This document shows, piece by piece, positions 1 through 32,181 of a stretch of DNA of 35,796 nt. The stretch is from contig JAEEPF010000016.1 in assembly GCA_016284635.1 (NCBI GenBank), positions 1 through 35,796 on the forward strand, written 5' to 3'. Within the stretch, counting starts at the first letter, position 1, and each line of letters opens with the position of its first letter. The position numbers and the translations under genes were made by a program. Below the pieces are notes generated by a model. It did not search any database. It had not been told where the DNA came from and was given only the letters and a program-made list of their open reading frames with translations. The stretch comes from Prevotella sp. Its GTDB lineage: Bacteria; Bacteroidota; Bacteroidia; Bacteroidales; Bacteroidaceae.

Positions 1-1034
1 CCGCAGTCGCTGACAGAAATTTCGGTAGTCAGGTCACCATTCAGCGAGAAGGTAGCGTCTAAGTTGCTGCCACCCATCAGCGCTACCAGCAAATCGAGGA
101 TAGTACCAGATCCTGTGTATTTTGACAGGTCAATCTCCTTGTCTGTGTACTCAAGCATACTCCAGAGATCCATCATATTCTTGCCATTATGCACGAAAGT
201 AAGATACGTGCCAACCTTGTTGGTTTCAGGATCCTGAGTAAAGATGAAGTTGAGGTCTGTGGCATCGGCAGCATGCTTTCCGTCTGGACTGTCGGGAGCA
301 GCAGATTGAAGGGTTCCAACAATGTTGACACCATCGGTTCTGGGATTAATAAACTCAGATTCACCGCTCATATCAAACTGATTCGTGAACCCACCTTTAA
401 AAGCATCTACCCAATTTCCATCACCATTTCCGGCAAGCGTAAATTCGAAATCTGAGGGGACGAGAATCACAACAGCCAACTCTTCATTGCCCAAACGCTT
501 GGCAAGCTGCTTGTAGGTGTCACCACTTGCCTTCAACGTCAGCTTGTTAGATATCACTATTGGGGTTTCCGGGTTGATATGATTGATCATCATCTCGAAG
601 TCATCGGCTTCCTCTACGTCGAAGCCTGAGCCATCTGCCTTCATCGTGAAACGGTAGTTGAATTTCGTCAGGTCGACTGTGGCATACTGCTTGTAGCCCA
701 TCGCTGCCAGTTCGCTACCCTCTTCCACGGGCTTGACAGTCTCACGAATCTTCTGGGTAAACAGGGGGATGATGGCCTTCTCGAACTCAGGGTTGTTCAG
801 CACGGTTGTGTTGAAAGCCTGATTAATTGTGTTAGCAAGTTCCCACGAACTGAAGTTCAGGTTTTCTGCCACTTCCTTCAGGTTCTGGCGGGTGTGCTGG
901 ATAAACTCCTTGCGGTCCTTCTTAGCCTGCTCCTGCGAGGGGTTGTCATTTGCGTCGTTAGCAGAACACGATGTAATTACACTTGCGCCGCAGATAAGGG
1001 TGGCGGCGAGCACCCAATTCATAATCTTTCTCAT
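1..1034 (-). CDS. Lipoprotein of unknown function, C-terminus beyond window
   Basis: A continuous reading frame runs from ATG at 1034 to the left edge, so at least 344 residues are present and the C-terminus is missing. An ATG two codons upstream (1040) is also possible. The protein begins with a lipoprotein signal peptide (MRKIMNWVLAATL, lipobox ending in Cys23), so it is probably anchored in the outer or inner membrane facing the periplasm or surface. The mature part is rich in Asp, Asn and Lys, has alternating beta-like stretches, and shows no catalytic motif I recognise. The signal peptide is nearly the same as that of the M13 peptidase at 24711, also at DNA level. A TAnnTTTG box lies about 60 bp upstream. 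Family not recognised; existence of the gene is well supported, function is unknown. Confidence 0.85.
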   Translation of the reverse strand, partial: MRKIMNWVLAATLICGASVITSCSANDANDNPSQEQAKKDRKEFIQHTRQNLKEVAENLNFSSWELANTINQAFNTTVLNNPEFEKAIIPLFTQKIRETVKPVEEGSELAAMGYKQYATVDLTKFNYRFTMKADGSGFDVEEADDFEMMINHINPETPIVISNKLTLKASGDTYKQLAKRLGNEELAVVILVPSDFEFTLAGNGDGNWVDAFKGGFTNQFDMSGESEFINPRTDGVNIVGTLQSAAPDSPDGKHAADATDLNFIFTQDPETNKVGTYLTFVHNGKNMMDLWSMLEYTDKEIDLSKYTGSGTILDLLVALMGGSNLDATFSLNGDLTTEISVSDC

Positions 1035-1093
1035 AATCATTTTAAATTAAAAATACATATTATTGTTAGTAATTGTTATTTGATTATTGACTA

Positions 1094-1101
1094 CAAAGGT
1101 A
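1094..1101 (-). promoter_or_regulatory. -7 box TACCTTTG for the lipoprotein gene
   Basis: The minus strand reads TACCTTTG, an exact match to the Bacteroidota -7 consensus TAnnTTTG, 59 bp upstream of the ATG at 1034. No -33 TTTG at the usual 19-21 bp spacing was found. Confidence 0.65.
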
Positions 1102-1210
1102 CTCAAAAAACCCGAAATATGCAAGGCCAAAATCGCCGCGAGTGAAAATTTTGCTTTAGCCGTAACTTTTTTTGCTTTAGATGTAAGTCGACCCGCCTCA
1201 CGATCCGCAA

Positions 1211-1252
1211 ATTAACGCATTTTCAACATCCATTCACGCATTTTAAACATCG
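1211..1252 (+). repeat. Two tandem 21-bp direct repeats, probable AraC operator
   Basis: Two adjacent 21-bp units (1211-1231 and 1232-1252) both follow ATTnACGCATTTT..AACATC, with about 3 differences. The period of 21 bp equals two helical turns, the usual geometry of AraC-family half-sites. The repeat lies about 73 bp upstream of the -7 box of the membrane AraC gene at 1361. It occupies most of the otherwise empty 326-bp divergent region 1035-1360, so it could serve both genes. Role is inferred. Confidence 0.6.
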
Positions 1253-1324
1253 GAAACCGACGATGAAATGGCAAAAAAACAAAACTTTTTTTGGAAAACC
1301 TGCACGATTTCACTGAAAAAGTAG

Positions 1325-1332
1325 TAATTTTG
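1325..1332 (+). promoter_or_regulatory. -7 box TAATTTTG for membrane AraC gene
   Basis: TAATTTTGC matches the extended Bacteroidota consensus TAnnTTTGC, 28 bp before the ATG at 1361. Together with the box at 1094-1101 it makes the region a divergent promoter pair. Confidence 0.65.
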
Positions 1333-1360
1333 CATTCCAAAAGAAACGATTAAAAACTAT

Positions 1361-2506
1361 ATGCCTGAACAGATAACTCCATTGTCGATATTGTATCTCC
1401 TGCTCCACGGCGCAGGAACTGCCGTGTCCGTCGTGTTGTGCCTCTACCTGCTGCTGTGTCCGGGCAAGGCCATCGCGCCCGACATCAAGTCGCCCGCACG
1501 GCTGCGCCGCTGGGCAGCGGCACTATTCGGCATCATGGCCATGGCCCACGTCTGGTGGATACTGTTCTACACATACTCGAACGACACCTGCTCGGTGATC
1601 TACGGGCTGCTCGTCGCCAACGACTGCATGGTGCTGCCGCCCGTCTTCGTCGGCACGCTGCTGACCATGCTGCAGGACCGCCACCGGCCGCTGTGGCCCA
1701 ATTTCGTCGTCATGACGCCCTGCGCGGTGATCGCTGTGCTGCAGATCGCCATGCCATCCGTCGACCTCACGACCCCGAACAAGATCTATGGACTGGTCCT
1801 CGCCGCGGCCTTCATTATATATATGGTGGTGGCCGTGAGGCAATATGGGCGGTGGCTGTGCGACAACTACGCCGACCTGGAGCACAAGGAGGTGTGGATC
1901 AGCCTTACGCTGCTCATCGGCCTCATGCTACTGCTCATGAGCTATGAATATACCGACAACTACGTGATGAACACCATCGCCCACATCATCGGATTCCCGC
2001 TGGCGGGCCTCCTGCTCTGGCGCGTGGATACATTGAAAGACCTGAGCACCGACAGCCTCACCCACGAGCCCTGTTCGGCACAAAGTGAAGTTTGCCTGAG
2101 CAAGCACTCGGCCATGCCGCCTTGCGAAGCCAAGAGCCCCTCTCCCAAGGGCGATGCCTTACATATCGGACAACTGCTGGCGAAGCACTGCGAGGACGCG
2201 CAGCTCTACCTGCAGACAGATCTGACCCTGTCGCAGCTCTCGGCAGCCATTGGCATGAACCGATACTATCTCAGCCAGTATTTCGCCAGTCAGAACACAA
2301 GCTACTATGAATACATCCACGACCTTCGCATCCGTCACTTCATAGCCCGCTACCGTGAGCTTGCCGTCGCACATAAGCCCATTGTCGCCCAGCAGCTGGC
2401 CCTGGAGAGCGGCTACCGCAGCTACAGCACCTTCAGCACCGCCTTCAAGCAGCGCATGCACAAAAGCGTCGCTGCCTGGATGCACGAAGAGGCATCGAAA
2501 TTATAA
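1361..2506 (+). CDS. Membrane-anchored AraC-family transcriptional regulator
   Basis: 381 residues. The first ~225 residues hold about six or seven hydrophobic segments, followed by a polar linker (~230-265) and a C-terminal AraC-type double helix-turn-helix (~268-375: AAIGMNRYYLSQYF, then LALESGYRSYSTFSTAFKQ). Tethering of an AraC DNA-binding domain to a polytopic membrane sensor implies that a membrane or periplasmic signal is passed directly to DNA; this is inference from architecture. The protein is paralogous to the one at 26818: both have a WW after the second or third helix, LLQDR.R.LWP-like and YADLE.KEVW.SL motifs, and a WRV(D/E)TL before the linker. It probably binds the 21-bp direct repeat upstream of its own gene. 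GC content is clearly higher than in the paralogue, which suggests different histories. It is followed after 46 bp by the DUF4139 gene, which may be co-transcribed. Confidence 0.85.
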   Translation: MPEQITPLSILYLLLHGAGTAVSVVLCLYLLLCPGKAIAPDIKSPARLRRWAAALFGIMAMAHVWWILFYTYSNDTCSVIYGLLVANDCMVLPPVFVGTLLTMLQDRHRPLWPNFVVMTPCAVIAVLQIAMPSVDLTTPNKIYGLVLAAAFIIYMVVAVRQYGRWLCDNYADLEHKEVWISLTLLIGLMLLLMSYEYTDNYVMNTIAHIIGFPLAGLLLWRVDTLKDLSTDSLTHEPCSAQSEVCLSKHSAMPPCEAKSPSPKGDALHIGQLLAKHCEDAQLYLQTDLTLSQLSAAIGMNRYYLSQYFASQNTSYYEYIHDLRIRHFIARYRELAVAHKPIVAQQLALESGYRSYSTFSTAFKQRMHKSVAAWMHEEASKL

Positions 2507-2552
2507 ACCGAAAATAAACCGCACAAAAGATAATCAATTATATTAAACCTCT

Positions 2553-4463
2553 ATGAATATTAAGCGTAAAATGATGATTGCCATTTGCCTGATGGCAGCA
2601 GTTATGACTAAGGCTATTGAGAAGCAGACTGCTTCGATCAACAAAGTTACTGTGTTTACCAATGGTGCCCAGGTGGAGCGTTCTAAGAGTGTAAACCTGA
2701 TGCCAGGCGAACAAGTGGTGACGTTTACTGGGTTTTCTCCACATATGGACAAAAAGAGCTTGCAGGTTAAGGCCAAGGGGCATCTCACGATATTAGGCGT
2801 AAGCGAGCGAACTGCTCACCCTGATTCGGCTGCACAAATCAAGAAACTGCACGATGCAGAGGATGAGGTGAAGGCAGTGGAACGTCGTATCCAGCAGGCA
2901 AAGGATGAGCAAGAGATGCTGACCGCGCAGCTGGAACTGGTTAAAACCAACTGCTCGGTGGCAGGCAGGACAGTGGCCACACCATTGGCAAATATCAAGG
3001 AACTGAACGCCTACTATGCCCAGCAGGTGCTTTCGGTAAAGAAACGCAGCCAGGAGCTGGACGAGCAGTTGCAAAAACTGAATGATGAACTGAAACGCAA
3101 ACAGAAAACGTGCGACTCGATAGCAAAACTGAAGTTGAAGAGCGTCACCGAGATTGATGTTAAGGTGGATGCCAAACAAGCCGGTCGTGCCGATTTCGAC
3201 ATTACCTATTATGTGAAGAATGCAGGATGGTTCCCCAGCTACGACATACGTTCTAACAGCACTAAGGAACCATTGCTTCTGTCGTACAAAGCCAACATCT
3301 ATCAAAACACTAAGGAAGAGTGGAAAAACGTGCCCGTAACGCTCTCGTCGGCCAATCCGAATCGCTCTAACGTTGCACCACAACTAAAAACGTACTGGCT
3401 GGATTATGGGCTGTCGGCTCCTACTTATAATATTGATTCTGACGGTAGTAATGTTGTTAGCGGAAAGATTGTTTCTGCCGATGACGGTGATCCAATGATT
3501 GGAGCAGCTGTTAAGGTAAAGGGTACTAATCTAGGTACAGTTTCTGATGTGGATGGTCATTATTCCATTGTCCTGCCACAAAACAGTCGCCAGCTTACGT
3601 TCTCATATGTAGGCTATCTGAGCCAGACACACACTGTAGATCCTGGTTCTACACTTAACATACGCCTGAAAGAGGACCAAGCTGCCCTTCAAGAAGTTGT
3701 GGTTATGGGCTATGGTACATCAAAGAAGGGACGCAGATCAAAATCTGATGGCGTAATAATGAAAGCGAAAGAGAGCATACCGGCGATGGCAGATGTTGCT
3801 GTGGAAGAAGAGATGGACGAGAGCGAAGTGATTGCAGTCAATCAGCAGCAGGCACAGTTCGGCTATGAGTTCGACATCAAGCAGCTGCTGACATTGCCCG
3901 ATGGTGGCAAGACGACTACTACTGAGATTGCCCGTCATCAGTTGCCAGCGTCATATGAGTATCGTGGCATACCCAAAATTGACAAGGAGTCGTTCTTAGT
4001 GGCCGATGCTACCGACTGGCAGAAACTCAACCTGATGGAGGGCGAGGCTAATGTGTACTTTGACAACTCGTTTGTGGGCAAGAGTATTCTCGATCCTACC
4101 GTAAGTAGCGACACGCTCCACTTCTCGATGGGTCGCGATCAGAGCATCCGTGTACAGCGCATCAAGGTCAGCGAGAGTTCTACACGTCGATTTTTGGGCA
4201 GCAATCAGGAGCAGACTATGAAGTGGCGCATCACCGTAAAGAACAATCGTCAGGAGAGTGTCAATATCACCGTATTCGATCAGGCCCCCATCTCACGTAA
4301 TACCAGTATCGAGGTCAGCATGGAAGAACTGAGTGATGGTCAGTTTGATAAGCAGACCGGTATCATCAAGTGGCCCCTACAGCTCCAGCCCGGCGAACAG
4401 CGTGACCTGATTCTGCAATACAAGGTAAAATATCCCAAGAACCGCCGTCTTAACATCGAGTAG
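2553..4463 (+). CDS. DUF4139 (MuiA-like) protein with inserted carboxypeptidase-regulatory domain
   Basis: 636 residues with an N-terminal signal peptide (to about residue 22). The order is: DUF4140-type N-terminal beta domain (~25-100); coiled coil rich in Glu/Gln/Lys (~95-190); first part of DUF4139 (~200-295); a CarboxypepD_reg-like domain (~300-375: VSGKIVSADDGDPMIGAAV...TNLGTVSDVDGHYSI); then the SusC-like junction EVVVMGYGTSKK (~380-390); and the rest of DUF4139 (~435-630). In SusC proteins the carboxypeptidase-like domain plus VVVxGYGT precedes the plug; here it sits inside another fold. Family members were named mucoidy inhibitor MuiA-like, but the molecular role is not established. 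Probably periplasmic or surface exposed. It starts 46 bp after the AraC gene and ends 41 bp before the DUF4153 gene, so all three may share transcription. Confidence 0.8.
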   Translation: MNIKRKMMIAICLMAAVMTKAIEKQTASINKVTVFTNGAQVERSKSVNLMPGEQVVTFTGFSPHMDKKSLQVKAKGHLTILGVSERTAHPDSAAQIKKLHDAEDEVKAVERRIQQAKDEQEMLTAQLELVKTNCSVAGRTVATPLANIKELNAYYAQQVLSVKKRSQELDEQLQKLNDELKRKQKTCDSIAKLKLKSVTEIDVKVDAKQAGRADFDITYYVKNAGWFPSYDIRSNSTKEPLLLSYKANIYQNTKEEWKNVPVTLSSANPNRSNVAPQLKTYWLDYGLSAPTYNIDSDGSNVVSGKIVSADDGDPMIGAAVKVKGTNLGTVSDVDGHYSIVLPQNSRQLTFSYVGYLSQTHTVDPGSTLNIRLKEDQAALQEVVVMGYGTSKKGRRSKSDGVIMKAKESIPAMADVAVEEEMDESEVIAVNQQQAQFGYEFDIKQLLTLPDGGKTTTTEIARHQLPASYEYRGIPKIDKESFLVADATDWQKLNLMEGEANVYFDNSFVGKSILDPTVSSDTLHFSMGRDQSIRVQRIKVSESSTRRFLGSNQEQTMKWRITVKNNRQESVNITVFDQAPISRNTSIEVSMEELSDGQFDKQTGIIKWPLQLQPGEQRDLILQYKVKYPKNRRLNIE

Positions 4464-28074: not shown

Positions 28075-30051
28075 ATGAAAAGGATAACGTTTGCTGTCTT
28101 GATGCTGGCGGTGAGCATAACGCTCACTGCCCAGCAAAAAGTATCAGAGAAAGAAAAGACATTAGCAAATCAAGTATATCAAGCACAAATGAGCGGCAAT
28201 GATTCTGCTTTCTATCTGGCAGAAGAGGTGCTCATGAACTATCAGAAGAAACAAAAGAACTGGGAAAGATTCTATTCTGCATGGCTTAATCGTATCATCT
28301 ACGAAATGAACCACAAGAACTTTCATCGTGCCTTCACGGAGATACATCTGCTAACAGACGATATAAAGGAACGAGGAAAGACGGAATACCTCTATATTCC
28401 TAATCAGGCAATGGGGCTATATTATACCAACCGTAATTACCCGGAACTGGGTGAAAAGCATTTCCGACGTGCTCTTGAAGGAATTGACACCCTGACAAAC
28501 ACTGTGGCCGTATTCAATACCTACCTTTCGCTTGCTCAGGCTCTAAGTTTTAACCATCCTGACGAAGCGATGTCTTGTCTTGATCACCTCCCCAAATCGA
28601 TGCTTGAAAATCCAATGTACGATAGTGGAGTGCTGGGATATCGCTGTATTATTGCCCATAAACAGGGAGACTTAGATTCTTTCAATCAGTATTTTGAGCA
28701 ATACGACAGTATCCGGAAGAATTTAGCAGACCAGTTTAACGCGACTAATCTCTATCAGGTGATGGTATGTCACGGCCTTATGCATCATGACTACCAAAGT
28801 GCACTCGCATGGTGCGATAGCATTGATGTCCCACTCGTGGCAACAGAACTTCGACTAGATGTTTACAATGCGATGCATGAGTGGGAAAAGGCATATCGCG
28901 AACAAATCATAAAAGATAGTCTCGTCCATATTGATAATCGCAAAGCCTTGGAAGAAAATCTGGGCGATATAACACACGACATCAACTTGATACAAGCAGA
29001 ACTGGAAAAGGCAAAACTGCGCCGTCAAGAGCTATGGATCATCAGCGGACTGGGTGTTGTCATCATCGCCATGCTGATAGCTATGCTATTTTACAGACAT
29101 AAGAAGAATCTTCATCTGAAGAGACAATTTCAGCAGTTGCAAGAGGAACAGGAACGAAATGCCGAACTCAGAGGTATCAGGAGAGCTATCGTCGGCTCTC
29201 TCAAACAGCAATTAGACTCTCCTGTCAGGGTGCTTCAAGGATATGCGCGGATCTTTAATGATCCTGCTTTCAGTTTGCCTGTTGACGAGCGAAGCAAACA
29301 TTATCAGGACATAGCCAAAGCAGCTCGCAGTATTGAGGCGATGATAGAACCTGTCATAGGGTCATACGCTCATGGAGGCGCAGGCATCAGCAAGGAGCAG
29401 AGGGAAATCTGCCAGAATGCCTTGTGCTCCTCACTCGTAACACTGACTATGGCTTCAGAATTAATAGCTGATGACGTCAATCATCAGATATCTCAAGAAG
29501 AGTACATGCGGATGCGCTCTGAAATCAGTCAATGTGCTCATCACGTAGCATCGTCTGTCCACGAACTGATGGAATTATGTCTTACAGATGAGAAAACGAA
29601 AATGGAGAAGAACGACCTGGTAGGTCTGAATGAGATAGCCTTGGCCACATTAAACAGCTATGATTTGCGTAATCACGACTTGACCTTTGATTTTGCTACA
29701 GATGTTGATGATGACGTAAACATCCTGACTAATCAACATGCCATGCAAGAAATCATCAATTGTCTCTTGTCGAATGCTGACAGATACGCCCCTGGCGGTG
29801 CTGTAAAGATGAGTTGTCAGAGTGCATCAGACGGAACATACAGCATATCGATTGCAAATGACGGCCCTACCATCTCCCCGAAATATGCAGAATGTCTATT
29901 CGACCCATTTGTGCGTCTCTCTGAAGACAGTCAAACCATTGGGCTTGGGCTAACACTTGCCCGCCAGCTGGCTGAAAGCATGGGCTATGCACTAATGCTT
30001 GATGCCAGCTATGCTGAGGGCGTTCGCTTTTCAGTGATGGGTATCAGATAG
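28075..30051 (+). CDS. TPR-containing sensor histidine-kinase-like protein without the phosphoacceptor His
   Basis: 658 residues. Signal peptide (to ~19), periplasmic TPR-like helices (~25-285; e.g. LGEKHFRRALEGIDTL), coiled coil (~285-318), one transmembrane helix (~319-341), a second coiled coil, then a DHp-like region where the H-box reads SLKQQLDSPVRVLQGYARIF. Alignment on the Pro (383) puts Gln378 and Gln379 where active kinases have His-Glu. The HATPase_c domain (~520-655) keeps an N-box (IINCLLSNADRYA), a D-x-G-like loop altered to NDGPTIS, and GLGLTLAR. So ATP binding is plausible, autophosphorylation in the normal way is not. No receiver or HTH follows. It lies 141 bp after the AraC gene with the same operator, and is probably its partner or target. 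Confidence 0.8.
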   Translation: MKRITFAVLMLAVSITLTAQQKVSEKEKTLANQVYQAQMSGNDSAFYLAEEVLMNYQKKQKNWERFYSAWLNRIIYEMNHKNFHRAFTEIHLLTDDIKERGKTEYLYIPNQAMGLYYTNRNYPELGEKHFRRALEGIDTLTNTVAVFNTYLSLAQALSFNHPDEAMSCLDHLPKSMLENPMYDSGVLGYRCIIAHKQGDLDSFNQYFEQYDSIRKNLADQFNATNLYQVMVCHGLMHHDYQSALAWCDSIDVPLVATELRLDVYNAMHEWEKAYREQIIKDSLVHIDNRKALEENLGDITHDINLIQAELEKAKLRRQELWIISGLGVVIIAMLIAMLFYRHKKNLHLKRQFQQLQEEQERNAELRGIRRAIVGSLKQQLDSPVRVLQGYARIFNDPAFSLPVDERSKHYQDIAKAARSIEAMIEPVIGSYAHGGAGISKEQREICQNALCSSLVTLTMASELIADDVNHQISQEEYMRMRSEISQCAHHVASSVHELMELCLTDEKTKMEKNDLVGLNEIALATLNSYDLRNHDLTFDFATDVDDDVNILTNQHAMQEIINCLLSNADRYAPGGAVKMSCQSASDGTYSISIANDGPTISPKYAECLFDPFVRLSEDSQTIGLGLTLARQLAESMGYALMLDASYAEGVRFSVMGIR

Positions 30052-30104
30052 TAGGACACAGAAGGGTAAGGAACTTTTATGTCCTTCATTTTATACATTC
30101 CGAT

Positions 30105-30190
30105 GATTATAAAGCCTTGTTGCTGTGATTATCTACGCTTCGTACTGGCATTATGAAAGGTTCGTGTTGCTATCATCAAGCCTTCGTGCT
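30105..30190 (+). repeat. Degenerate repeats of ~19-25 bp
   Basis: Four loosely similar units share ATTAT..A..CTT.GT..CT (e.g. GATTATAAAGCCTTGTTGCT, then ATCATCAAGCCTTCGTGCT). Spacing is irregular, so a decayed tandem array is the most I can claim. Confidence 0.35.
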
Positions 30191-30251
30191 CCGAACAACA
30201 AGTCCTCAATGTGATGGTAGATTGTTAATCTTCATAATTTGTCATAATCGT

Positions 30252-30259
30252 TATCTTTG
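30252..30259 (+). promoter_or_regulatory. Orphan -7 box TATCTTTG (plus strand)
   Basis: Exact TAnnTTTG with no gene downstream; it points into the 61-bp palindrome 47 bp away. Possible promoter of a non-coding RNA. Confidence 0.4.
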
Positions 30260-30305
30260 TATTCTTATACTTAGTGCTATTTTTTGTCCTCTATTGAGTT
30301 CTCGA

Positions 30306-30366
30306 TGTTTCAGGCCTTGGAATATATATTCCATGACCTGGAGTATATATTCCAAGGCCTGAAACA
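30306..30366. repeat. 61-bp palindrome, 23-bp perfect arms
   Basis: Arms at 30306-30328 and 30344-30366 are perfect complements (TGTTTCAGGCCTTGGAATAT...), with a 15-bp centre. Each arm junction includes a self-complementary GGAATATATATTCC-like block, repeated at a 21-bp period. There is no T-run after it, so it is not a standard terminator. Confidence 0.85.
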
Positions 30367-30377
30367 ATATCCAGTTG

Positions 30378-30385
30378 CAAAGGTA
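30378..30385 (-). promoter_or_regulatory. Orphan -7 box TACCTTTG (minus strand)
   Basis: TACCTTTGCAA on the minus strand, 11 bp right of the palindrome and pointing into it, opposite to the box at 30252. No gene follows on this strand nearby. Confidence 0.4.
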
Positions 30386-30521
30386 AGCAAATTCCTCCAA
30401 CAAGCGTTTGTCTTGCCAAATAGGTTACGGTTACAAGTGTAACCATGTGACCATTTTCTTGAGGGTTGAAATTGTTTTACAAGTTTAGAAAGCAAGGAGA
30501 AAGAACGGACTTTAGATAGTC

Positions 30522-30558
30522 CAAACTGGGAGTTTGCAGTAACTAAACTCCCAGTTTG
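30522..30558. repeat. Hairpin, 14-bp perfect arms
   Basis: CAAACTGGGAGTTT and AAACTCCCAGTTTG are separated by a 9-nt loop (GCAGTAACT). It is the first of two adjacent hairpins with the same design and loop length. Confidence 0.8.
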
Positions 30559-30566
30559 CTTACTTT

Positions 30567-30601
30567 AAACTCCTGTTTTCCTTAGTTCAAAACAGGAGCT
30601 T
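30567..30601. repeat. Second hairpin with related arms
   Basis: CTCCTGTTTT (30570-30579) and AAAACAGGAG (30589-30598) pair perfectly around a 9-nt loop; two more pairs outside follow one mismatch. The AACTCC core is shared with the preceding hairpin and with the 291-bp array. Confidence 0.75.
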
Positions 30602-30745
30602 TACAACTGTCTGAATATCAAGCAGATACAAAGGCATCGCGCTGAAATGTCTTTTTGTGAATTTTATTGACAAAAGTGTATTGCCAAAACAAAAAATCAG
30701 GATCAACTGGGTCTTGATAAATGAAGTGCAAGCCGAAAAAGCGTC

Positions 30746-31036
30746 AGACCTCCCGTTTCCTTTGGAAACACCTGTGTTTATCGGGGTTTTAAGACGGGAG
30801 GTCTTGTTTGAAGACCTCCCGTAGACCTCCCTTAGACCTCCCATTTGAACTCCCACTTCTTCAAACTGCGTGAAACTCCTGAAATAGTAAATTTCCTGGC
30901 TGATGATATATTTATAAAGGATCGCGCGAGGGAACCGACGGGAGGTCTATGGGAGATGTAAGGGAGGTCTTATTAGGAGACCTCCCGTGCTGAAAACCCG
31001 ATAAACACAGGTATATCCAAAGGCGACGGGAGGTCT
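30746..31036. repeat. 291-bp mirror-symmetric array of AGACCTCCC units
   Basis: Two 99-bp arms (30746-30844 and 30938-31036) are inverted copies with equal layout, around a 93-bp centre. Each arm has a 59-bp module bounded by AGACCTCCCGT / ACGGGAGGTCT, a 7-bp spacer, and three 11-bp units of AGACCTCCCnT (two intact and one decayed in the right arm). The 59-bp modules differ by about five substitutions and two 1-bp indels. A 12-bp hairpin (30794-30822) lies where module and units meet. No open frame, no obvious target-site duplication at the ends. Confidence 0.85.
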
Positions 31037-31177
31037 CGGCACAAAATCAGCTACAACGTATTTTTTGATGCATCATAAAAGATAAAGGTATATAGTTAAC
31101 GTTCATGCCGATGCCTTCCATAACAGTAAGGGATGCCTACTGACAGAGTAAGTAATGCTTAGTATACCTCCATAACA

Positions 31178-31230
31178 GGCATCTCCAACACCATGACTTG
31201 GCATCTCCAACAGCGTGACTTGGCATCTTA
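31178..31230 (+). repeat. 22-bp tandem repeat, about 2.4 copies
   Basis: GGCATCTCCAACA...TGACTT occurs at 31178-31199 and 31200-31221, differing at about 3 bases, with the next copy broken off after GGCATCT. It ends about 57 bp before the SPFH -7 box. Confidence 0.75.
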
Positions 31231-31323: not shown

Positions 31324-32181
31324 ATGAATAAGAATTATCGATTATTAGCCATTGTCGGAGGAAGCATCGCTGCGGTGCTGATCCTGTTCTCTGTCTGTTG
31401 CACCGTAGTTGACTCGGGCGAAGTGGGTATCCGTTTCCACAAGTGGTCGCTCAACGAGCAGGACTACGGCGGTGTGGAAGGCACGTGCAAGGGTTGGGTG
31501 TTCTACAACCCTATCACCACCAACGTGTTCACCTACCCCACCTTCACACAGCGGAAGCAGTATGAGACCTTCTCCGTGAACGCCAAAGACGCCTCGCTCT
31601 TTGAGATGGACCCCACCATCGCCTATCGCATCAACCCAGACAAGGCCTGCGACATCTTCACCAAATACCGTGTGGGGGTGAAGGAACTAGAAGAGGGCTA
31701 CATCCGCACCTGTATCTACGAGGCCTACCGCACCTGCGCCAACCAGTACACCTCAGACTCGCTGATGTCGAACCGTGCCAACTTCGAGCGCGACGTCCGT
31801 GCCCGTCTGGAGAAGTCGCTGATGGCTGAGGGTTTCCTCGTGGAGGAGTTCACCTCGAAGATTACGCCGCCATCGTCGCTGCTCTCGATGATCGACGCCA
31901 AGAACACGGCCATCCAGAGTGCCCTGAAGGCCGAGAACGAGGTGAAGGAGGCTGAGGCCAATGCGAAGATTGCTGTCGCCAAGGCCGAGGGTAACGCCAA
32001 GGCCATGAAGATCAAGGCCGACGCAGAGGCATACTACAACCGCACCATCGCCGCATCGCTCTCACCGATGATCGTCCAGGAGGACATGATCGAGAAATGG
32101 GACGGCAAGATGCCTCAGATCATGAGCGGCAACGGCGGTATGATCATGGATATCTCGAAAGTGATAGGAAACAGCAAATAA
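31324..32181 (+). CDS. SPFH/prohibitin-domain membrane protein
   Basis: 285 residues. One N-terminal membrane anchor (~8-27), then a prohibitin/Band-7 domain (~28-205: VVDSGEVGIRFHKW, PTFTQRKQYETFSVNAKDASLFEMDPTIAYRI), and an Ala/Glu/Lys-rich coiled coil (~190-240: ALKAENEVKEAEANAKIAVA). SPFH proteins form large oligomeric rings that organise membrane microdomains and control proteases. The rubrerythrin gene follows after 23 bp without its own promoter box, so both probably form an operon, linking the protein to oxidative-stress defence. GC content is higher than in the island upstream. Confidence 0.9.
   Translation: MNKNYRLLAIVGGSIAAVLILFSVCCTVVDSGEVGIRFHKWSLNEQDYGGVEGTCKGWVFYNPITTNVFTYPTFTQRKQYETFSVNAKDASLFEMDPTIAYRINPDKACDIFTKYRVGVKELEEGYIRTCIYEAYRTCANQYTSDSLMSNRANFERDVRARLEKSLMAEGFLVEEFTSKITPPSSLLSMIDAKNTAIQSALKAENEVKEAEANAKIAVAKAEGNAKAMKIKADAEAYYNRTIAASLSPMIVQEDMIEKWDGKMPQIMSGNGGMIMDISKVIGNSK

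Follow-up and report, generated by a model that had tools for sequence, protein, structure and literature searches.

Among the described systems that come closest to the locus analysed here, the replication module of SaPI and PICI islands (Rep or Pri-Rep with an iteron origin; PriRep1, 7pds) uses a helicase of the same type, and the Cch2 operon of SCCmec likewise provides a helicase whose C-terminal domain binds direct repeats, in that case downstream of the operon (PMC7581432). As far as its excerpted description goes, the latter differs in its larger cassette, adjacent recombinase gene, own primase-polymerase and one putative origin. Short, dispersed intergenic repeats with inverted ends and tandem repeats are known as MITEs, for instance BrickBuilt of Porphyromonas gingivalis in the part of its report consulted (PMC4596501), and palindromic repeats between genes are also found, by a partial account, in the REP elements with RAYT (PMC3733652). 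Prevotella itself has an intergenic repeat family, PINSR of Prevotella intermedia/nigrescens, described in the consulted section of its report as a 188-bp repeat without terminal inverted repeats and confined to another lineage (PMC4755523); it is by this description only that PINSR is set apart from the elements considered below.

We analysed a stretch of 35,796 nucleotides from a Prevotella sp. (the window), and conclude with high confidence that a mirror array within it is a gene-less member of a family of vapE elements without prior description. The replication module itself is of the known SaPI Rep type, and the element built from it is new. In contrast to SaPIs and PICIs, the gene is flanked on either side by putative iteron sets that mirror each other and have a hairpin core, the unit measures ~1.6-2.4 kb with several dispersed copies per genome, and no integrase-, excisionase- or packaging-like gene recurs; for the integrase with attachment sites that such islands carry, clustering of the ORFs around the 135 loci gave no recurrent integrase-like group. 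Nothing on such vapE-arm elements was found in the open literature, subscription papers being outside the scope of the search, and a search for DUF6078 and DUF3874 (see below) gave no occurrence of either; PMC5862659, in the portion consulted, names the BT4734 primase family only. The sequence-only reading had named an identical array within a known MITE as a finding that would speak against it: the open papers searched offered no such MITE, but the array did prove to be the gene-less copy of a larger element.

The mirror array and its surroundings

An inverted-repeat search of the window places two arms of 97 nt each at 30746-30842 and 30940-31036, 82% complementary and 97 nt apart. Aligned with the reverse complement of arm 2, arm 1 scores 126, relative to a maximum of 31 in pair shuffles (n=1000) and a maximum arm-type score of 35 in random 291-nt stretches of the window (n=300), confirming the 291-bp mirror array, with its 59-bp modules and three 11-bp units per arm, that had been noticed from the letters alone. 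Agreement between the arms is thus good without being complete, with differences at 17 of the 97 positions. Folded as single-stranded DNA, the array reaches -86.5 kcal/mol relative to a shuffle mean of -33.6 (z -13.7). Each arm comprises a 59-bp module bounded by inverted units, a 7-nt spacer and three units 11 bp apart (Table 1), which in arm 1 start at 30812, 30823 and 30834 and are mirrored in arm 2 about 30938-30970, where the degenerate unit reads TGGGAGATGTA. The outer hairpin module of arm 1 also adjoins vapE in loci L026 and L024. Attention had been drawn to the composite layout shared by both arms, aptly so, since in related copies the arms are the mirrored ends around a gene.

Table 1. 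Features of the mirror array and its outer repeats in the window
Feature	Position	Strand	Basis
Arm 1, outer hairpin module with core TGTGTTTATCGGGG between a unit and an inverted unit	30746..30804	+	Inverted-repeat search
Arm 1, inner side: three tandem 11-bp units AGACCTCCCNT	30812..30844	+	Repeat searches
Centre, in place of vapE and leader	30845..30937		Comparison with C260 element
Arm 2, tandem units: three, one degenerate	30938..30970	-	Inverted-repeat search
Arm 2, outer hairpin module	30978..31036	-	Inverted-repeat search
Left outer repeat, distal part: 22-bp tandem units	30094..30202	+	Common to C251, C260 and G018
Left outer repeat, proximal part: 22-bp palindromic array at 30498-30591	30398..30745	+	Common to C260, C251 and C200
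Right outer region: 22-bp array at 31178-31228	31082..31229		80% identical to C251 stretch

Searching the array in other genomes, as had been proposed, returned matches in 5 of 60, three of them short partial matches only. Three further contigs of the window's own genome (G000) have the arm: C200 carries both (73% across the full array), C260 and C221 one each. In the related genome G018, contig C263 carries two inverted arms at 568-674 and 2198-2297 with a 423-aa open frame between them (683-1954, minus strand), and the C260 arm abuts the same helicase gene. Two arms without a gene are present in the window, in C200 and at locus L106, and the window array is most likely the remains of a small dispersed Prevotella element whose central gene was lost. 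No vapE remnant is detectable in its 93-bp centre (best match to the C260 element, E 0.23), and we therefore infer the deletion of the gene itself. The suggestion of an invertible centre is rejected, as relatives have vapE and its leader at that place, the window retains no remnant and no recombinase-like cluster recurs nearby. An RNA stem, also proposed, is unlikely for the 5' arm, which in our reading is sited upstream of a Bacteroides-type promoter box, and a known structured RNA family is rejected, with 0 Rfam matches at gathering threshold in the whole window.

The intergenic region that holds the array is long, bordered on the left by a histidine-kinase-like gene (28075-30051) and on the right by a Band_7 gene (31324-32181). 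Positions 30419-31206 of the window align with C200 at 74%, its left part aligns with the 5' outer repeat of C251, and the C251 counterpart of its right outer region is the stretch after the 3' arm of a vapE copy; from these alignments the window holds a gene-less element of about 30094-31229. An empty site at this locus was sought through the Band_7 neighbours in 80 genomes: the Band_7 gene occurs in 7 other genomes, in none of them with the histidine-kinase gene within 1.5 kb.

The outer repeats have features of their own. A stretch of ~195 bp at 30203-30404, lacking where this outer repeat recurs in C260 and C251, has CAACAAG on both sides (30196-30202 and 30398-30404), contains a palindrome with 28-bp arms at 30306-30366 and has a solitary relative at G000:C138:1660-1830; it resembles a small insertion of its own, with a 7-bp target duplication. 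The C260 element (L024, G000:C260:4557-7200) is enclosed by ~360-bp outer inverted repeats, 81-82% complementary, of which C251 and the window have one copy each. Short arrays of period 20-22 bp and differing sequence lie at window positions 1211, 26708, 27938, 30318, 30544, 31178, 35399 and 35442; other elements have similar 22-bp arrays on the outer side of their 5' arms. In some elements, 22-bp palindromic arrays of the TTCCCAGNNTGGGAANNTTT type make up the outer 5' edge (L158:1953-2037; L262:2922-2992; L264), and the L158 array matches several further places in its own genome.

The arm-vapE-arm family and its dispersal

Both the G018 and the C260 protein have a match to PF05272, the VapE-like domain (E 2.9e-34 and 8.5e-34, respectively), and a C-terminal DUF3874 match that falls just short of its cut-off. 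At 1e-20, a VapE protein is present in 103 of 150 genomes of the genus, a count that takes in longer ~700-aa relatives, and among named genomes a scan gave 393 relatives, stand-alone or longer. We sampled 150 loci, 70 from the genus search (30 taken directly, and 40 further stand-alone copies chosen among its matches) and the best 80 of the 393. These 80 carry the labels Prevotella, Prevotellaceae, Xylanibacter, Bacteroidaceae or Bacteroidales and come mostly from ruminant assemblies, with some from isolates, P. ruminicola KHT3 and X. ruminicola Ga6B6 among them. The 150 loci reduce to 135 distinct genes, 5 of them too close to a contig end. With arm pairs called at a local score of at least 50 between the 5' and 3' flanks, inverted arms flank the gene in 102 of 115 distinct stand-alone copies at 60% identity or above (13 are without a scoring pair), in 6 of 8 at 48-60% and in 0 of 7 at 30-48%. 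The 13 copies without a scoring pair count against the element reading, as does the top shuffle score for arm pairs, 51, which is above this threshold; when flanks of different elements are crossed, 21% of 300 draws reach at least 50, as relatives would be expected to do. Within 300 nt after the gene, a 9-mer is repeated beyond the level of all shuffles in 14 of 16 armed copies, whereas the longer relatives show this in 0 of 11; it is also seen in 4 of 9 low-identity copies, none with a scoring arm pair, which again counts against the element reading. Complete copies have the order arm, vapE, mirrored arm; the unit array begins 0-47 nt after the vapE stop at most loci, and arm to arm the unit measures ~1.6 kb with one gene, within an element size range of 1.6-2.4 kb.

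Read from its inner end outwards, an arm starts with two to four units in tandem and a single reverse unit; next comes the core, which often contains CCTTTGTACA or TGTTTATCGG-like sequence, and beyond it lie a forward unit and a partial one. Across 100 elements, tandem units are spaced mostly by 11 bp (170) or 12 bp (121), the reverse unit lies mostly 14-20 after the last forward unit and mostly 45-52 before the distal one, and 157 of 200 arms pass a simple layout test. The unit is common to both arms within an element and different between elements, as in AGACCTCCCGT, ATGTTAGGTCT, GTTATATGT, GGTGAAGAG and TGTAGAGTG. In set 1 (51 rows in this count, one locus being counted twice), the median number of occurrences of an element's own unit is 8, and 83% of other elements' arms lack that unit; the corresponding values in set 2 are 10 and 65%. 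Incompatibility as the driver of unit divergence is rejected, as units from the same genome are not more different than matched pairs (501 of 2000 draws).

The copies are dispersed over unrelated places, and an orthologous site may hold a copy in one relative and lack it in another. Two copies in one genome, L068 and L069, have only the gene and arms in common within 5.5 kb, and pairs from different genomes (L258/L259 and L262/L264) have ~1.6 kb in common, with no further match above 100 bp besides the arms' own inverted matches. At L158, ~2.4 kb lie between two homology blocks whose distance is 55 bp in L210 and 6 bp in L211, the two of ten relatives with the L158 left flank that also keep the right one, and the ~2.9-kb insert at L160 is missing from 8 of 12 relatives' loci that keep both flanks, there ~60-260 bp apart. 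Both inserts exceed the arm-to-arm length and hold other DNA, in L158 a 22-bp palindromic array and a DUF6078 gene (L158:3856-4299; PF19555 E 4.4e-34), so that outer arrays and the DUF6078 gene may belong to the mobile unit. Locus L278 has a right flank in common with L259 (93% over 587 bp, with extra DNA between) and retains one arm's worth of element, the junction falling in a copy of the unit; it looks like a gene-less copy at the orthologous site of L259. The comparison of the L259 and L262 sites found this gene-less copy and no clean empty site, and the relatives compared for L082 and L068 gave no informative pair. At four elements examined there is no target-site duplication of at least 7 bp, only 4-6-bp matches at chance-like places; this and the size of the L158 and L160 inserts count against the element reading. 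At L134, whose site has its left flank in common with L158, vapE (2501-3748) has an in-frame stop codon.

A DUF6078-like frame lies on the same strand within 400 nt of the vapE stop, beyond the 3' arm, at 48 of 135 loci, and all five such proteins tested match PF19555; the protein has conserved cysteines near its start and is perhaps a partner of VapE. The position of this gene, together with the frequency of the VapE family in phages and islands, would suit an origin of the elements as decayed replication modules of larger satellites or prophages, mostly vertically inherited, with the arms as the old origin. We consider such decay improbable, in view of reading frames under constraint in 6 of 6 pairs tested, equal-length copies with unrelated flanks, presence/absence polymorphism, and the lack of close relatives in viral, phage and plasmid collections, where the best matches listed reach 30%, 35% and 34%. 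A first viral scan with VapE gave no relative, the phage and plasmid matches listed are all below 60%, and carriage by phage or plasmid is rejected, those collections holding only distant helicases. A defence system is likewise rejected, with no PADLOC match for VapE or DUF6078; NCBIfam has no match for VapE.

The elements could also be passive and MITE-like, a transposase or integrase encoded elsewhere moving the arms, with vapE as cargo or as a copy-number benefit. The IS-like size of ~1.6 kb, the terminal inverted repeats and the existence of short, gene-less two-arm copies (window, C200, L106) are all features in keeping with this; however, when the 1037 ORFs within ~1.7 kb of the 135 loci were compared, by clustering rather than by profile search, no recurrent group resembled a transposase or integrase, and genes for the Y1 transposase (PF01797) are present in only 7 of 13 element-bearing genomes. 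The gene-bearing copies, in the place of an autonomous MITE parent with a transposase, encode VapE, and compared with BrickBuilt, in the consulted part of its description (PMC4596501), the family has a helicase instead of a transposase and units of ~11 bp that are mirrored and differ between elements. Mobilisation by Y1/RAYT is rejected, as PF01797 was not found in the other 6 of the 13 (G103, G104, G118, G035, G178 and G183, several being drafts), which also sets the family apart from REP elements with RAYT as partially described (PMC3733652). Overall, we regard passive mobilisation as unlikely, also in the light of the covariation described below.

Unit sequence and the VapE C-terminus

VapE is related to a known DNA-replication helicase, and its predicted role is that of a replication initiator. 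A usable fold prediction, obtained with an alignment of 63 rows including 12 phage-contig helicases (an earlier one had pLDDT 56), is closest to PriRep1 (7pds), a staphylococcal-island initiator, places VapE with the SaPI-type initiator helicases and features a predicted winged helix in the C-terminal ~60 residues. In one genome, L052 and L071 encode VapE proteins 93% identical and have unrelated units, with 16 of the 29 differences in residues 361-400; between L068 and L069, 6 of 18 differences fall there. The units of L070 and L075 differ with only 8 of 36 changes in these residues, which counts against the element reading.

We quantified this as the partial correlation between unit similarity and the identity of each 20-residue stretch, given the rest of the protein. 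In set 1 (50 elements, 1000 pairs of at least 58% identity), the correlation peaks at residues 361-380 (0.30) and 381-400 (0.35), values reached by 0 of 1000 permutations; taking all 1225 pairs gives 0.25 and 0.28, and among 74 pairs of at least 75% identity only 381-400 stands out (0.34, with 0.02 for 361-380). Set 2, comprising 50 other elements, has its peaks at 341-360 (0.25), 361-380 (0.29) and 381-400 (0.32; 0 of 500 permutations). Residues 81-100 correlate in set 1 (0.21, 0 of 1000) and not in set 2, counting against the element reading. The permutations ignore relatedness, for which the contrast within the protein and the repeat in the second set serve as controls. For all 100 elements, the C-terminus correlates at 0.41 with the 3' arm and 0.36 with the 5' arm, and the N-terminus at less than 0.08 with either. 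In a per-residue ranking, 10 of the raw top 25 positions lie at 340 or beyond, as do 62 of the 318 tested; the list is headed by nearly invariant positions, which are noise, and among its 11 variable positions (identity below 0.6, a filter chosen afterwards) 9 lie at 365-391.

This covariation makes a good case for the VapE C-terminus as the part that would recognise the units. As unit changes track it, VapE itself appears to read the arms, which argues against a passive, MITE-like element. The sequence-only reading had placed a cooperative DNA-binding protein on the 11-bp units, and such a protein is the best reading here too, supported in kind by the 11-12-bp spacing in 100 elements and the covariation with VapE. 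A VapE that binds the units could be an autorepressor, with the arms as operators or terminators controlling vapE and its neighbours and the mirror symmetry being regulatory; one arm does lie upstream of the vapE promoter region and the other directly after the stop codon. An autoregulator would nonetheless need no matching array after the gene, nor a similar outer module on both sides, and gene-less dispersed pairs would be left unexplained, making this account very unlikely.

The C260 element appears to be a mosaic. Its 5' arm resembles the C251 arm (GGGAGAGAT), its 3' arm those of G018 and the window (AGACCTCCC), and vapE changes affinity likewise, with nt 1-300 at 91-98% identity to C251 and nt 1101-1272 at 64-75% to C251 and 90-94% to G018. 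The switch at both the gene end and the 3' arm suggests that the C-terminal end of vapE and the adjoining arm were exchanged together; nt 301-400 are also nearer to G018, which counts against the element reading.

Replication from mirrored arms as a possible mode of spread

Homology and position make it likely that the arms have an origin function. We consider it probable, on the evidence above, that the window array represents the arms of a small mobile Prevotella element without its initiator helicase, and that VapE binds the units and starts replication. VapE would bind the 11-bp units of both arms through its predicted C-terminal winged helix and initiate replication there, the arms acting as iteron origins; helicase rings loaded at the mirrored arms could over-replicate the element, and host recombination or a factor supplied in trans might insert the extra copies elsewhere. 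A change of specificity would begin with a joint exchange of the vapE 3' end, encoding the winged helix, and the adjoining 3' arm, the 5' arm afterwards being converted to match; C260 looks like an intermediate in such a change, before its 5' arm conversion. The window copy would not be autonomous, yet C260, which has this unit in its 3' arm, could supply a VapE able to use it.

We know of no class of bacterial mobile element that spreads by a replication initiator instead of a transposase. More tentatively, and with less confidence than in the initiator role of VapE, the family may constitute a new class of transposable element, moving through replication only, in which a self-loading initiator helicase fires two mirrored hairpin iteron origins and over-copies the 1.6-2.4-kb unit, host recombination pastes the copies without transposase or integrase, and the unit code is rewritten from one element to the next by exchange of a cassette comprising the DNA-reading helicase end and its neighbouring arm. 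The interest lies in a unit word that varies with the predicted DNA-reading end of the helicase, and in a spread for which no recurrent transposase gene accounts. If this is right, a common chromosomal element family of rumen and gut Prevotella spreads with a replication initiator, and puzzling intergenic mirror arrays such as that of the window would be explained as helicase-less copies. The family would also provide a natural series of paired protein and DNA specificities, the predicted recognition helix and wing of a hundred helicases varying together with an 11-bp word that each element repeats about eight to ten times, so that the evolution of origin recognition would become directly testable, including at the apparent midway stage represented by the C260 mosaic.
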